Shown in pieces: positions 11,065-17,095 of a stretch of DNA of 64,000 bases (positions within the stretch are counted from its first letter, which is position 1; each line of letters starts with the position of its first letter). A program made the translations under genes and the position numbers. The notes under the pieces are model-generated. The model ran no database searches. It was not told the DNA's origin and saw nothing but the letters and a program-made list of their open reading frames with translations. Origin of the DNA: Inmirania thermothiophila (GTDB lineage: Bacteria; Pseudomonadota; Gammaproteobacteria; DSM-100275). Location: positions 784,726-848,725 of the forward strand of contig NZ_RJVI01000001.1 of assembly GCF_003751635.1 (NCBI RefSeq), given 5' to 3'.

Positions 11065-12729
11065 TTGGCGCGGGCATGGAACCGGGAGCGGCTCGGGCTG
11101 CTGCTGCTCGGCCTCGTGGTGATCGGGGCGGGGCTCGGGCTGCGCGATCCGTGGCCCCCGGACGAGCCGCGCTTCGCCCTCGTGGCCAAGGAGATGGTGG
11201 AGAGCGGACAGTGGCTCTTCCCCACCCGCGGCGGCTTCTACTACGCCGACAAGCCGCCCCTCTACTTCTGGCTCATGGCCCTGGCCTACCGCCTCACGGG
11301 GGAGCTGCGCCTGGCCTTCCTCCTGCCCTCGCTCGCGGCCGGGCTCGGCACCCTGCTGCTGGTGCACGATCTCGGCCGGCGCCTGTGGGGCCGGCGCGCG
11401 GGCCGGTGGGCGGCGATGGCGCTGCTGGTCTCGGTGCAGTTTCCGCTCCAGGCGCGCAGCGCCCAGATCGACGCCACCCTGGCCTTCTGGACCACGCTGG
11501 GGCTCTACGGTCTGGCCCGCCACCTCCTCCTCGGGCCGGCGTGGCGCTGGTGGCGCATCGGCTGGGCGGCGATGGGGTTCGGGGTGATCACCAAGGGGGT
11601 GGGGTTCCTCCCGGCGCTGGCGCTGATCCCCTGGGGCTGGGCCGCGGCGCGCGGCTGGCGCCGCATCGCGCGCCCGCAGGGGGGGTGGCTCGCCTGGGCG
11701 GGCGGGCCGGCGTGGATGCTGGCCGCGGTCGGCGCGTGGCTCGTGCCGATGCTGCTTGCGGTGGCGGCGAGCGGCGATCCGGCCCTTGCCGCCTATCGCG
11801 ACGAGATCCTCTTCCGCCAGACCGCGGATCGCTACCTGGAGGGCCACGGTGGCCACGTGGCGCCGTGGTGGTACCTGCTGGTGCAGGTGGTGCCCTGGGC
11901 CTGGCTGCCGCTCACCGCGGCCCTGCCCTGGCTCGTGCCCGCCTGGTGGCGCCGGCTGCGCCGGCGCGATGGCCGCCATCTGGTGCTGCTCGGCTGGGTG
12001 GTGCTGGTGCTCGCCTTCTTCAGCCTCGCCGCGGGCAAGCGCGGCGTCTACATCCTCCCGGCGCTGCCGGCGCTGGCGCTGGCGGCGGCGCCCCTCGTCC
12101 CGGGGCTGGTGCGGCGGGTGGCGGTGCAGCGCACGGCCTGGGCCGTGCTCGCCGGCCTCGGCGCCCTCTTCGCCGGGCTTCTCGCCTGGCTCCACCTCGT
12201 CCCCGGGGCGCTGGATGCGGTGCGCACCCGCGAGCACCTGGATCCCACGCCGCCGCTCGCGGCCTTCGCGGCGCTGGCGGCGGCGGCGCTCGCCCTCGGG
12301 CCGCGGCGGGGGGTGGCGGCCCTCGCCGGCTTCCTGCTGGCCCTCTGGCCGGCCTACGGGCTCGTGGGCTACCCGGCGCTGGATCCCGGCCGCTCGACCC
12401 GCCCCTTCATGGCGGAGATCGGCCGGCGCATCGGTCCCCGCGCGGAGCTGGGGCTGACCTGGTGGAAGGAGCAGATGGTGCTGCTGGCGGACCGGCCGGT
12501 GCATGCGGTGCGCTGGCGCGGGCGGGCGCCGCGGGAGGTGCTGGCCGAGGCGGTGCGCTGGCAGGAGGTGGCGCCGGGGCGCTGGCTTGTGGTGCCGGAG
12601 GACCGGCTCGCGCCCTGCTTCGATCCGGCGCGCACGGTGGATCTGGGCCTTCGCCACGGCGTCCACTGGCACCTCGTGGGGTCGGAGGCTGCGACCGGGC
12701 GGTGCCGCGGCGGGGAGGTGCCGGGATGA
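11065..12729 (+). CDS. ArnT-like polyprenyl-phosphate glycosyltransferase (GT83/PMT family)
   Basis: A 554-aa polytopic membrane protein of the PMT/ArnT superfamily. These enzymes transfer a sugar from an undecaprenyl-phosphate carrier to lipid A or another periplasmic acceptor. The signature DEPRFALVAKEMVESGQW followed by YYADKPPLYFW (about residues 30-70) carries the catalytic acidic residue of the first periplasmic loop. About a dozen hydrophobic segments follow. The start is TTG, chosen because GGGGGAG lies 4 nt upstream and the first membrane helix follows immediately. It overlaps the response-regulator gene (ATGA). The sugar is unknown; a nearby ugd gene makes UDP-glucuronate, but arnA, arnB and arnD are not in the window. 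Confidence 0.88.
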   Translation: MARAWNRERLGLLLLGLVVIGAGLGLRDPWPPDEPRFALVAKEMVESGQWLFPTRGGFYYADKPPLYFWLMALAYRLTGELRLAFLLPSLAAGLGTLLLVHDLGRRLWGRRAGRWAAMALLVSVQFPLQARSAQIDATLAFWTTLGLYGLARHLLLGPAWRWWRIGWAAMGFGVITKGVGFLPALALIPWGWAAARGWRRIARPQGGWLAWAGGPAWMLAAVGAWLVPMLLAVAASGDPALAAYRDEILFRQTADRYLEGHGGHVAPWWYLLVQVVPWAWLPLTAALPWLVPAWWRRLRRRDGRHLVLLGWVVLVLAFFSLAAGKRGVYILPALPALALAAAPLVPGLVRRVAVQRTAWAVLAGLGALFAGLLAWLHLVPGALDAVRTREHLDPTPPLAAFAALAAAALALGPRRGVAALAGFLLALWPAYGLVGYPALDPGRSTRPFMAEIGRRIGPRAELGLTWWKEQMVLLADRPVHAVRWRGRAPREVLAEAVRWQEVAPGRWLVVPEDRLAPCFDPARTVDLGLRHGVHWHLVGSEAATGRCRGGEVPG

Positions 12730-13403: not shown

Positions 13404-14457
13404 GCGGCGGCTGCAGTCGCGCATCGTCCTCTTCGCCTTCGGCGTCGGTCTGCTGCTGGGCGTGCTCTTCGCCGGCACCGCCTGGCTGGGCTTCGATCAC
13501 CTCCAGGAGGAGCTCGTCGAGCTGATGCGGGGCGAGGAGGGCCCCGAGGAGATCGCCCGCCTGCGGCAGGTGGTGGCGGCGCTCCTGGTGGCGGGGGCGG
13601 GGGCGGCGGCCTACCTCGCCACCTGGCTCGGGCTGTGGGTCTCGGACCGCGTACTCGCGCCGCTCAACGAGCTCGCCCGCCGCGTCCACCGGCTCCGCCC
13701 GGGGGTGGCGGCGCCGGAGCCCCTGGCGCCGCAGTTCGCCGACGACGTGGTGCGCGAGCTCGCCGAGGCCTTCGACGCCTACGCCGCGCGGCTGGCCGAG
13801 GCGCTGGCGCGCGAGCGCGAGTTCACGGCCGCGGCGAGCCACGAGCTGCGCACGCCGCTGACCGTGATCCGCGGCAGCGCGGGCATCCTCCTCGCCGACG
13901 GGACGCTGCCGCCGCGCGCGCGCCGGGCCGCCGAGCGCATCGAGCGGGCGGCGCGGCGCATGACCGAGCTGGTGGAGGTGCTGCTGGTGCTGGCGCGCGG
14001 GGGTGAGGGGGCGGCGGCGCCGGTGCCGGTGGCGCCGCCGGTGCGCGAGGCGGTGGAGGCCCAGCGTCACCTGCTGCGGCCGGGCGTGACCCTCACCGTG
14101 GAGGCCGACGAGAGTGCACAGGTGGCGGCGGCCCCGGCGGCGGTGGCGATGGTGGCGGGCAATCTCGTCGCCAACGCGCTGCTCCACACCGAGGCGGGCG
14201 CGGTGCGGGTGCGCGCCGACGCCGCGGGCCTCGTGGTGGAGGACACGGGCCGGGGCATCGACCCGGCGGAGGCGGCACGCCTGTTCGAGCCGGGCTACCG
14301 CGGCGCCGGCGCCGCCCCCGGGGGCGAGGGTCTCGGCCTCACCGTGGTGCGGCGGATCTGCGCCCACTACGGCTGGGCGGTGCGGCTCGCGCCGCGCGAG
14401 GGCGGCGGCACCCGCGCCGAGGTGTGCTGGGGCGGGCGGGGCGGCGCCGGCCCTTGA
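13393..14457 (+). CDS. Membrane sensor histidine kinase, partner of the upstream regulator
   Basis: A 354-aa HisKA kinase. Two transmembrane segments (about residues 11-32 and 62-84) flank a short 30-residue periplasmic loop with several acidic residues (LQEELVELMRGEEGPEE). This could sense cations or cationic peptides, as in ColS/PmrB; that is an inference. A HAMP-like linker precedes the H-box H150 (ASHELRTPL). The N-box (GNLVANALLHT), G1 (EDTGRGID) and G2 (GEGLGLTVV) are intact. The start overlaps the regulator by 11 nt. Confidence 0.92.
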   Translation: MPFRRRLQSRIVLFAFGVGLLLGVLFAGTAWLGFDHLQEELVELMRGEEGPEEIARLRQVVAALLVAGAGAAAYLATWLGLWVSDRVLAPLNELARRVHRLRPGVAAPEPLAPQFADDVVRELAEAFDAYAARLAEALAREREFTAAASHELRTPLTVIRGSAGILLADGTLPPRARRAAERIERAARRMTELVEVLLVLARGGEGAAAPVPVAPPVREAVEAQRHLLRPGVTLTVEADESAQVAAAPAAVAMVAGNLVANALLHTEAGAVRVRADAAGLVVEDTGRGIDPAEAARLFEPGYRGAGAAPGGEGLGLTVVRRICAHYGWAVRLAPREGGGTRAEVCWGGRGGAGP

Positions 14458-14496
14458 CGAATCCTTCATGCCGCCTTCACGCCGGCTTCACGGCGG
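14453..14496 (+). promoter_or_regulatory. Four-copy 11-bp direct repeat, candidate operator of the upstream response regulator
   Basis: CTTGA or CTTCA begins at 14453, 14464, 14475 and 14486, exactly 11 bp apart. The last three units are CTTCATGCCGC, CTTCACGCCGG and CTTCACGGCGG. The array spans the kinase stop codon and ends 6 bp before a TATCCT -10-like hexamer (14503-14508) that has no recognisable -35. OmpR-family activators such as PmrA bind direct half-sites with this 11-bp period just upstream of weak promoters. The GT2-LAB_N-ugd operon starts at 14535. Confidence 0.65.
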
Positions 14497-14502
14497 CGCC
14501 GC

Positions 14503-14508
14503 TATCCT
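14503..14508 (+). promoter_or_regulatory. Candidate -10 (TATCCT) of the GT2-LAB_N-ugd operon
   Basis: TATCCT lies 26 nt before the GTG at 14535, with GGGGGAG (14522-14528) between. The -35 position (CGCCGG) is poor, as expected for an activator-dependent promoter. Confidence 0.45.
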
Positions 14509-14534: not shown

Positions 14535-15254
14535 GTGGAGCTTTCGCTGGTCATTCCGATGCACAACGAGGCGGAGAACGTCGAGCCGCTGCTCGGCGAG
14601 ATCCGCGCCGCCCTCGAGGGGGCGGCCGACTACGAGGTGGTGGTGGTCGACGACGGCAGCGACGACGACACGCCGCGCATCCTCGCCCGGGTCGCGGCGG
14701 GTTTTCCGCGCCTGCGCGTGATCCGCCACCGCACGAGCTGCGGCCAGAGCACCGCCATCCGTACCGGCGTGCGCGCGGCGCGGGGGACGTGGATCTGCAC
14801 CCTCGACGGCGACGGCCAGAACGATCCCGCCGACATTCCGCGGCTGTGGGCGGTGGCGCGCGAGGAGGCCGCCGAGGGGCGGCCGTTGCTGGTTGCCGGC
14901 TGGCGCCGCAGCCGCCGCGACACCTGGATCCGGCGCCTGTCCTCGCGCATCGCCAACGGCGTGCGCGCGCGGCTGCTGCGTGATGCGACGCCGGACACCG
15001 GCTGCGGGCTCAAGGTGTTCCGCCGCGCCGACTTCCTGGAGCTGCCCTATTTCGACCACATGCACCGCTTCCTGCCGGCGCTGTTCCTGCGCGCGGGCGG
15101 GCGCGTGCGCTCGGTGGAGGTCCACCACCGGCCGCGCGAGCGCGGCCGCTCCCACTACGGCATCCGCAACCGCCTGTGGGTGGGGATCGTGGACCTGCTG
15201 GGGGTGATGTGGCTGATGCGGCGCGCCCGCGTGCCGGTGATCGAGGAGGCCTGA
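14535..15254 (+). CDS. GT2 glycosyltransferase, dolichol-phosphate-sugar synthase-like
   Basis: A 239-aa family-2 glycosyltransferase. It starts directly with the Rossmann strand ([18 protein letters not shown]), then has [26 protein letters not shown] and the GCGLKVFRR...F...HRF..AL pattern of polyprenyl-phosphate sugar synthases. It probably loads a sugar from UDP-sugar onto undecaprenyl phosphate for the ArnT-like enzyme. Unlike ArnC it has no pair of C-terminal membrane helices, only one hydrophobic stretch near the end; the adjacent LAB_N protein may provide membrane context. The GTG start is fixed by a well-spaced GGGGGAG. Confidence 0.87.
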
Positions 15255-15257
15255 GCC

Positions 15258-15560
15258 GTGCCGGAGCAGAATCTCGTCTGGCTCATCGTCGGGTTCACGG
15301 GGCAGGCGCTCTTCTCCATGCGCTTCCTCGTGCAGTGGCTGCAGAGCGAGCGCAAGCGCCGCAGCGTGGTGCCGGTGGAGTTCTGGTACTTCAGCGTCGC
15401 CGGCGGGGCGACCCTGCTCGCCTACGCGATCCACCGCGCCGACCCGGTCTTCATCGTCGGCCAGGCGACGGGGCTCTTCATCTACCTGCGCAACCTGCAC
15501 TTCATCCGCAAGGAGCGGGCGCGGCTCGCCGCCGCGGGCGACGGCAGGGAGGAGGGGTGA
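15258..15560 (+). CDS. LAB_N (lipid A biosynthesis N-terminal) domain membrane protein
   Basis: A 100-aa protein with three hydrophobic segments. The diagnostic pattern [19 protein letters not shown] and [13 protein letters not shown] identifies the stand-alone LAB_N domain (related to the N-terminus of some LpxB proteins and to PQ-loop carriers). Such proteins are recurrently encoded beside GT2 and ArnT-like genes in lipid-modification loci. Their exact activity is unproven; a flippase or scaffold role is possible. The GTG is preceded by GAGGAGG. It sits 3 bp after the GT2 stop and 1 bp before ugd. Confidence 0.85.
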
Positions 15561-15561
15561 G

Positions 15562-16902
15562 ATGCGCGTCACCATCTACGGCTGCGGCTACGTCGGGCTC
15601 GTGACGGGGGCGTGCCTCGCCCACGTCGGCAACCGCGTGCTCATGGTGGACGTGGACGCCGAGCGGGTGGCGCGGCTGCGCCGCGGCGAGCTGCCCATCT
15701 ACGAGCCCGGGCTCGACGACCTCGTCGCGGAGGCGGCGGCGGGAGGGCGGATCGCCTTCACCACCGACGCCGACGAGGCCGTGGCCCACGCCGAGGTCCA
15801 GTTCATCGCCGTGGGCACGCCGCCGGACGAGGACGGCTCGGCGGACCTGCGTCACGTCCTCGAGGTGGCCCGCACCATCGCCGAGCGCATGGACGGCTAC
15901 CGCCTCATCGTCAACAAGTCCACGGTCCCCGTGGGCACCGCCGACCGCGTGCGCGAGACCGTGCGCGAGGTGCTCGCCGCCCGCGGCCTCGAGCTCGACT
16001 TCGACGTCATCTCCAACCCCGAGTTCCTCAAGGAGGGGGCGGCGGTCGAGGACTTCATGAAGCCCGACCGCATCATCGTCGGCTGCGAGCGCGAGGACAG
16101 CGCCGAGCGCATGCGCGAGCTCTACGCGCCCTTCAACCGCAACCACGACCGCCTGCTGGTGATGGACACGCGCTCGGCGGAGCTGACCAAGTACGCGGCC
16201 AACGCCATGCTCGCAACCAAGATCAGCTTCATGAACGAGCTGGCCAACCTCGCCGAGCGCGTCGGCGCCGACATCGAGCGGGTGCGGGTGGGGATCGGCT
16301 CCGATCCGCGCATCGGCTACCACTTCATCTACCCCGGCTGCGGCTACGGCGGCTCCTGCTTTCCCAAGGACGTCAAGGCGCTGATCCGCACCGCCGAGGA
16401 GGCCGGCCACGACGCCCGCATCCTGCGCGCCGTGGACGGCGTCAACGAGCGGCAGAAGCGGCGCCTGTTCGAGAAGATCCGCGATCACTTCGGGGGGCGG
16501 CTCGCCGGGCGCACCCTCGCCCTCTGGGGCCTCGCCTTCAAGCCCAACACCGACGACATGCGCGAGGCGCCGAGCCGCACCCTCATGGAGGCGCTGTGGG
16601 CGGCCGGCGCGCGCGTGCGCGCCCACGACCCGGTGGCCATGGCCGAGGCGCGGCGCCTCTACGGCGGGCGCGACGACCTCGTCCTCTGCGCCGACCCCAT
16701 GGAGGCGCTGGAGGGCGCCGACGCCCTCGCCGTCGTCACCGAGTGGCACCTCTTCCGCAGCCCCGACTTCGACGCCGTCAAGGCGCGCCTGCGCCGGCCC
16801 GTGATCTTCGACGGGCGCAACCTCTACGATCCCGCCCGCCTCGCCGCCCTCGGCTTCACCTATTACGGCATCGGCCGCGGCACGGGCGCGCGAAGCGCGT
16901 AG
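15562..16902 (+). CDS. ugd: UDP-glucose 6-dehydrogenase
   Basis: A 446-aa enzyme that oxidises UDP-glucose to UDP-glucuronate with two NAD+. The N-terminal NAD-binding motif is GCGYVG (residues 7-12). The catalytic cysteine is C266 in [12 protein letters not shown], and the conserved lysine region reads [14 protein letters not shown]. The length matches the family. GGAGGGG precedes the ATG. As third gene of the operon it links the GT2/LAB_N/ArnT-like system to a uronic acid or pentose-type sugar. The last 31 bp of the gene lie inside a 75-bp sequence that is repeated downstream. Confidence 0.96.
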
Positions 16903-16946
16903 GTGCGGCCGCGGCCGATGATGCCGTGGGGCTGATGCGGGCGGTG
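16872..16946 (+). repeat. 75-bp direct repeat, copy 1 (spans the ugd 3' end)
   Basis: Identical over 75 bp to 17004-17078. It covers the last codons and stop of ugd plus 44 bp beyond. It contains a GC-rich inverted repeat (GGCCGCGGCAC facing GTGCGGCCGCGGCC) around a CGCGC-GAA-GCGCG hairpin. Partial similarity continues for about 17 bp past the exact repeat. Confidence 0.9.
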
Positions 16947-17003
16947 CGGGGGCGTGGGGTCGGGTCATGGGGGTGCGGTTGGGGAGCTGGCGGGGCAGGC
17001 ATG

Positions 17004-17078
17004 CGGCCGCGGCACGGGCGCGCGAAGCGCGTAGGTGCGGCCGCGGCCGATGATGCCGTGGGGCTGATGCGGGCGGTG
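17004..17078 (+). repeat. 75-bp direct repeat, copy 2 (detached ugd 3' end)
   Basis: A second exact copy beginning 132 bp after the first, in the gap between the convergent ugd and srkA genes. It carries a non-functional copy of the last ugd codons and the same hairpin. It may act as a second transcription stop for either gene. The rest of the 193-bp gap (16903-17095) holds no gene. Confidence 0.9.
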
Positions 17079-17095
17079 GGGAGGTGTGGGGTCGG

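Follow-up and report, generated by a model that had tools for sequence, protein, structure and literature searches.

What are four short repeats, set exactly 11 bp apart, doing between the gene of a histidine kinase and that of a glycosyltransferase? The window (the whole 64-kb stretch of DNA analysed here) carries, in this order, genes for an ArnT/PMT-like glycosyltransferase, a response regulator and its partner kinase, then the array, and then GT2, LAB_N and ugd (Table 1). The array sits where the kinase gene ends (14457) and ahead of GT2, which begins with GTG at 14535; its first half-site overlaps the kinase stop codon (TGA, 14455-14457).

Table 1. Genes and promoter elements of the array locus (window positions)
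Feature	Position	Strand	Basis or detail
ArnT/PMT-like lipid-A glycosyltransferase	11065..12729	+	PF13231, PF02366; weak ArnT match NF009784
ColR-type OmpR-family response regulator, 225 aa	12726..13403	+	Response_reg + Trans_reg_C
Partner histidine kinase, 354 aa	13393..14457	+	HisKA + HATPase_c
Half-site 1, CTTGAC	14453..14458	+	TTSAY core 14454-14458; sequence and tetrad pattern match
Half-site 2, CTTCAT	14464..14469	+	core 14465-14469; sequence and tetrad pattern match
Half-site 3, CTTCAC	14475..14480	+	core 14476-14480; sequence and tetrad pattern match
Half-site 4, CTTCAC	14486..14491	+	core 14487-14491; sequence and tetrad pattern match
-10 element, TATCCT	14503..14508	+	position fixed in exact tetrad matches
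GT2, family 2 glycosyltransferase, ArnC-like	14535..15254	+	PF00535; weak, below-cutoff match to NF007986 (ArnC model)
LAB_N-domain small membrane protein	15258..15560	+	PF07578, E 6e-34
ugd, UDP-sugar 6-dehydrogenase	15562..16902	+	TIGR03026 above cutoff

The array and its promoter

A preliminary description of this DNA had read four repeats starting at 14453, 14464, 14475 and 14486 with a period of 11, and both the letters and the shuffles agree with it. Read directly, the four half-site starts keep a period of exactly 11 bp; Tandem Repeats Finder reports the same period with 3.1 copies and a score of 47, and finds that half-sites 2-4 also have spacer letters in common (consensus CTTCACGCCGG). 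When the whole window was searched on both strands for phased TTSAY words with periods of 8 to 14, the longest run in 300 dinucleotide shuffles was two, against four in the real window, where the run of four is confined to period 11 and to the + strand. The four-part array is non-random. It is also solitary: three phased CTTSA words occur nowhere else in the 2.61-Mb genome, the tetrad followed by N11 and TAnnnT has one match in the genome even with three mismatches allowed (the reversed control pattern has none at up to three mismatches), and a pattern of only two half-sites plus the -10 element likewise leads to this site alone. The array had been expected to give a motif for a wider regulon, an expectation that a full-genome scan returning one site does not sustain. 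A second CTTCA pair of this genome (C3:56542) lies at the 3' end of a gene and is probably due to chance.

The core of half-site 4 (TTCAC) starts 16 bp before the -10 element, which places the half-site just downstream of the expected -35 position. A -35 element is missing; the hexamer 17 bp upstream of the -10 element is CGCCGG (14480-14485), and a promoter scan found no sigma-70 pair at the array promoter. The promoter is thus, as had been proposed, one with a -10 element (TATCCT) and without a -35. Since the -10 element lacks this partner and half-site 4 ends shortly before it, a bound regulator would stand in for the -35.

A ColR-type regulatory pair beside probable lipid-A genes

Which regulator might this be? 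In the tree, the window regulator groups with 42 ColR-like regulators, among them the syntenic Pseudomonas ColR and the regulators of tetrad-bearing loci, and this clade is split at 100/99 from the other OmpR-family regulators of the genome. Both the tree and a comparison of recognition helices (that of the window regulator is ESDALRSHIHQLR) put it outside the PhoB, OmpR, PhoP-like and QseB-like branches of the genome, and nearly all regulators of the ColR-like clade have in common the signature SDxLRxHhxxLRxxhDxPF in their DNA-reading region. By sequence, then, the regulator next to the array falls in the ColR clade. It shares 54-57% identity with the regulator of a P. putida-syntenic colRS locus, the ColR reference row of the tree, which was assigned by gene order and is not P. 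putida ColR itself. This reference lies on a Pseudomonas aeruginosa plasmid, where PAP2 and LTA-synthase genes diverge from the regulator-kinase pair, and genes for a methyltransferase, an LPS kinase and a diacylglycerol kinase follow 3' of the kinase, an order that agrees with what is published for P. putida, both the surroundings of colRS and the list of its targets (PMC2689224, PMC4074579). Branching inside the clade comes without resolution, and it is by path length there that Xanthomonad-type rows are nearest to the window regulator.

The partner kinase is ColS-like in its cytoplasmic part. An N-terminal alignment leaves its periplasmic loop with about 30 residues, ColS-like relatives having about 85 more; the loop is thus not of the ColS type, in which a loop of about 96 residues separates two membrane helices (PMC4074579). 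The inducing signal is perhaps metal ions, as for ColS of the zinc- and ferric-iron-induced ColRS; the loss of about 85 residues from the loop, where ColS senses its metals, suggests that it may differ from these. The loop has a Glu-rich stretch (EELVELMRGEEGPEE). The metal motif of ColS is an ExxE close to its second membrane helix; here an EGPE (ExxE) near membrane helix 2 (in GEEGPEEIARLRQ) belongs to a Glu-rich stretch and could be there by chance.

All four enzyme or membrane-protein genes that adjoin the regulatory pair (GT2, LAB_N, ugd and the ArnT-like gene) belong with envelope or LPS targets. The ArnT-like gene, whose exact start is uncertain, probably shares a transcript with the regulator that follows it, and GT2 is a probable polyprenyl-phosphate sugar synthase. 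The nearest relative of this GT2, 75% identical, is found in genome G061, where a PMT homologue (61% identical over 451 residues) directly precedes it; between the two there is neither a regulator pair nor an array, and the promoter has the -10 element TATAAT. The joint lack of pair and array in that genome implies that the array comes with the regulator pair. As a separate observation, the sequence surrounding the ugd stop, about 70 bp long (ggcacgggcgcgcgaagcgcgtaggtgcggccgcggccgatgatgccgtggggctgatgcgggcggtg), occurs a second time directly downstream (window 16880-17080).

Recurrence of the tetrad at ColR-like loci

Does the same array accompany ColR-type regulators elsewhere? The sample consisted of 40 ColR-like loci out of 369 genomes of the class (Gammaproteobacteria), with 80 GT2 loci lacking the regulator pair (632 kb) as negative control. 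At the ColR-like loci, pairs of TTSAC words were counted 28 times at a spacing of 11, 17 times at 22 and 14 times at 33, the average for other spacings being 2.2; the control loci gave two at spacing 11 versus a mean of 4.0 at the others, and in none of these 80 records was an array found at the GT2 gene. Most arrays at ColR-like loci reach four units. The earlier idea that the regulator here uses four half-sites rather than the usual two consequently stands as to the number and falls as to its being unusual, four being the common form at these loci. Among 39 arrays chosen by their half-sites alone, TAnnnT stands at offset 16 in 19, no other offset being represented more than five times, and the next-commonest one corresponds to an 11-bp register shift.

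The full pattern of tetrad plus -10 element, with up to five mismatches, was found 41 times in the ColR-like loci, which total 320 kb (5, 5, 7, 4, 8 and 12 with zero to five mismatches, overlapping registers counted), and never in the 632 kb of control loci; counted by locus, the best tetrad has at most five mismatches at 24 of 41 ColR-like loci (plasmid reference included) versus 0 of 80 controls. At loci of other OmpR-family regulators the best tetrads have five mismatches (one locus), six (two loci) or more than six (the rest). In relatives, the regions upstream of the regulator are mostly without a box, which is usually found downstream of the kinase: 19 of the 37 ColR-like loci with a kinase carry a tetrad within 150 bp after its stop, and at the first TTGAC the overlap with the kinase stop has the same offset in the window and at L221, L229 and L296. 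The remaining 18 of the 37, including Xanthomonad-type rows, have no recognisable tetrad after the kinase. A scan of all 369 genomes gave exact matches in ten (G000, G036, G076, G083, G092, G118, G124, G153, G207 and G298), every one of them within the 60 genomes with a close regulator homologue (E <= 1e-55). Many of the matches with two mismatches are simple repeats, those in G329, G355, G217 and G317 among them, and were given no weight; the reversed control pattern also matches genomes having such repeats.

Genes downstream of the tetrads are largely envelope-related. In G084 the tetrad precedes the GT2-LAB_N orthologue; across the related genomes it is present there and after ColR-like kinases, and is lacking at the GT2 locus of G061, which is without the regulator pair. 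In G185 it separates the kinase gene from LAB_N-PMT, in G149 from aminotransferase-GT2, and at the syntenic Pseudomonas colRS locus it follows the kinase. GtrA-GT2 genes come after it in G070, G074 and G178; other downstream genes encode a cyclopropane-synthase-like enzyme, a desaturase-like enzyme, a sulfate permease, members of the thermostable-hemolysin family and fasciclin proteins. The tetrad before GtrA-GT2 (L288, L289 and L290 in G074, G070 and G178, respectively) is a TTGATGTTTTTATGACC-type variant, a setting comparable to the P. putida ColR target PP0035.

A predicted ColR-type operator and its alternatives

Because the same tetrad occurs beside many ColR-like regulators, the array is very probably the predicted binding site of the neighbouring one, as the preliminary description had supposed; membership of the ColR-like clade, the enrichment of tetrads over controls and the G084 orthologue all agree with that view. 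We hold it to be highly probable that the array is the operator of this ColR-type system and that it serves to activate GT2-LAB_N-ugd through two dimers. On a signal received by the kinase, the phosphorylated regulator would bind the four head-to-tail TTSAY half-sites, whose spacing of 11 bp would align them on one helix face, as two adjacent dimers; from there it may replace the missing -35 and recruit RNA polymerase, in the manner of PhoB-like class II activation, switching on GT2-LAB_N-ugd. GT2, with the ArnT-like protein, would supply lipid A with a uronic or related sugar by way of a polyprenyl-phosphate-linked form, and the products of the operon, together with the ArnT-like protein, probably add a sugar of uronic-acid type to lipid A.

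How does this compare with the ColR site as it is known? In Pseudomonas and its relatives, ColRS governs tolerance to metals and the remodelling of lipid A. Its site had been derived from seven P. putida footprints and described as a core of two direct repeats within 16 bp, with a T-tract (Kivistik 2009, PMC2689224). All seven footprints contain TTCAC or TTGAC, mostly paired at 11 bp (PMC2689224), which bears out the earlier statement of ColR half-sites 11 bp apart and is what the array contains. The published sequences hold more than two such units in places: three exact half-sites are in phase in the PP0900 footprint, and the footprints of PP0035 and PP0737 have two exact ones and one near (PMC2689224). 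The likeness extends to the regulator clade and its recognition-helix signature, to a P. putida site that closely follows the kinase gene (PP0903) and to envelope/LPS targets, which in P. putida include the ColR-activated GtrA-family operon PP0035 (PMC4074579). In contrast, the array has four clear half-sites instead of a two-repeat core and no T-tract between them, so that against the P. putida consensus YYNASNNYTTTTTSAC it reaches at best 13 of 16, a score common in the window; further differences are the very short periplasmic loop, the target GT2-LAB_N-ugd and the single genomic site. Since both loop and T-tract depart from the type, the system is classed as a ColR-type variant and not as plain ColRS. 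In the portions of the open-licence papers on the ColR site that were consulted, no description of a four-half-site form was found. Somewhat less firmly than for the operator itself, we consider it likely that the native ColR operator is a tetrad for two tandem dimers, conserved across Gammaproteobacteria (four TTSAY words at 11 bp, with 16 bp from the start of the fourth to the -10 element, placed shortly after the kinase gene), and that in this GC-rich lineage it has been reduced to a single-promoter circuit for lipid-A sugar modification, run by a kinase without most of its sensor loop. The strict pattern of four sites plus -10, found in distant families, offers a searchable signature for ColR-type targets in unstudied genomes, and the tetrad gives a testable model of the number of regulator dimers.

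Other systems resemble this one in part. RaxRH of Xanthomonas, the ColRS orthologue (PMC8306577), also adjoins an arnT-like lipid-A glycosyltransferase gene, but the Xanthomonad-type regulators sampled (L207-L209, L295) are without a tetrad nearby. The window regulator scores 160.9 bits against the PmrA model, below its cutoff of 330. PmrA/BasR likewise controls lipid-A sugar modification from direct repeats at 11 bp, the half-site being CTTAA, unlike TTSAY. The Pho box has 11-bp direct repeats in place of a -35, and at this genome's own pstS the 16-bp spacing to the -10 is identical to that of the tetrad; it differs in its TGTCA half-sites, usually two, and in its regulator, the genome having a separate PhoB with a TGTCA/CGTCA box before pstS.

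Could another of the six OmpR-family regulators of the genome, a number that includes the window regulator, bind the array instead? A PhoP-like one would be the foremost candidate, its half-site also containing TTCA: the genome has two PhoP-like systems, and GTTCA direct repeats (GGTTCAG type) at 11 bp, candidate PhoP-type boxes, flank one of them (L173 and L174 around L158, C2:890-894 kb). These are pairs of the GTTCA type, however, not tetrads of TTSAY followed by a -10 element at a distance of 16 bp, and the tetrad tracks ColR-like loci whereas the best tetrads at other OmpR-family loci have at least five mismatches. By inspection, four of the other regulators have or adjoin candidate direct repeats, and the candidate boxes of PhoB, the QseB-like regulator and OmpR are of other kinds: TGTCAC/CGTCAC half-sites (CTGTCACGAAACCGTCACA) between phoR and pstS on C1 (L162), the last starting 16 bp before TAGGGT (-10); a TTAAC direct repeat at 11 bp (GTTAACGTGGCATTAACC) preceding the QseB/PmrA-like regulator (L156, C2:306 kb); and a GGTTAC repeat at 10 bp for the OmpR-like regulator. 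Binding by another regulator thus appears improbable.

It is about equally improbable that the site is of ColR type but serves repression, or that only two half-sites are used and the rest are remnants of local duplication. P. putida ColR does repress PP0268 and PP0737 (PMC4074579), but the fixed 16 bp from the last half-site to a -10 without -35 is activator geometry; the spacer letters common to half-sites 2-4 would suit duplication, but four half-sites recur in many families with unrelated spacers. That recurrence, in the same context, speaks equally against an array born of chance or tandem duplication with no regulatory role, as do the shuffles, which never exceeded a run of two; a single genomic copy and the ease with which slippage produces short tandem repeats fit such an origin, which we nevertheless regard as very remote. 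On sequence grounds, an activator site of ColR type in four-half-site form appears to be essentially the right description of the array.

The motif itself had been given as CTTCAnGCCG and thought special to a GC-rich genome. Neither part survives comparison: spacers between half-sites are unrelated across families, GCCG differs between species, and what is conserved is TTSAY repeated every 11 bp (TTSAY-N6, four times), while ColR-like loci elsewhere carry the same tetrad. CTTCA alone was tried and rejected, as a strict CTTCA triple in the 369 genomes catches unrelated repeats, mixing coding repeats (L119) with a tRNA region (L116), and is therefore the wrong motif. In G188, many TTTGAAGTCAC-type 11-bp repeats (L119/L124/L128) lie within coding sequence next to a ParA-like gene. 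In G300 (L121), the intergenic DNA that precedes the gene of a small membrane protein holds TGAAG (CTTCA) six times, each copy exactly 11 bp from the next; these repeats are of a type other than the tetrad.
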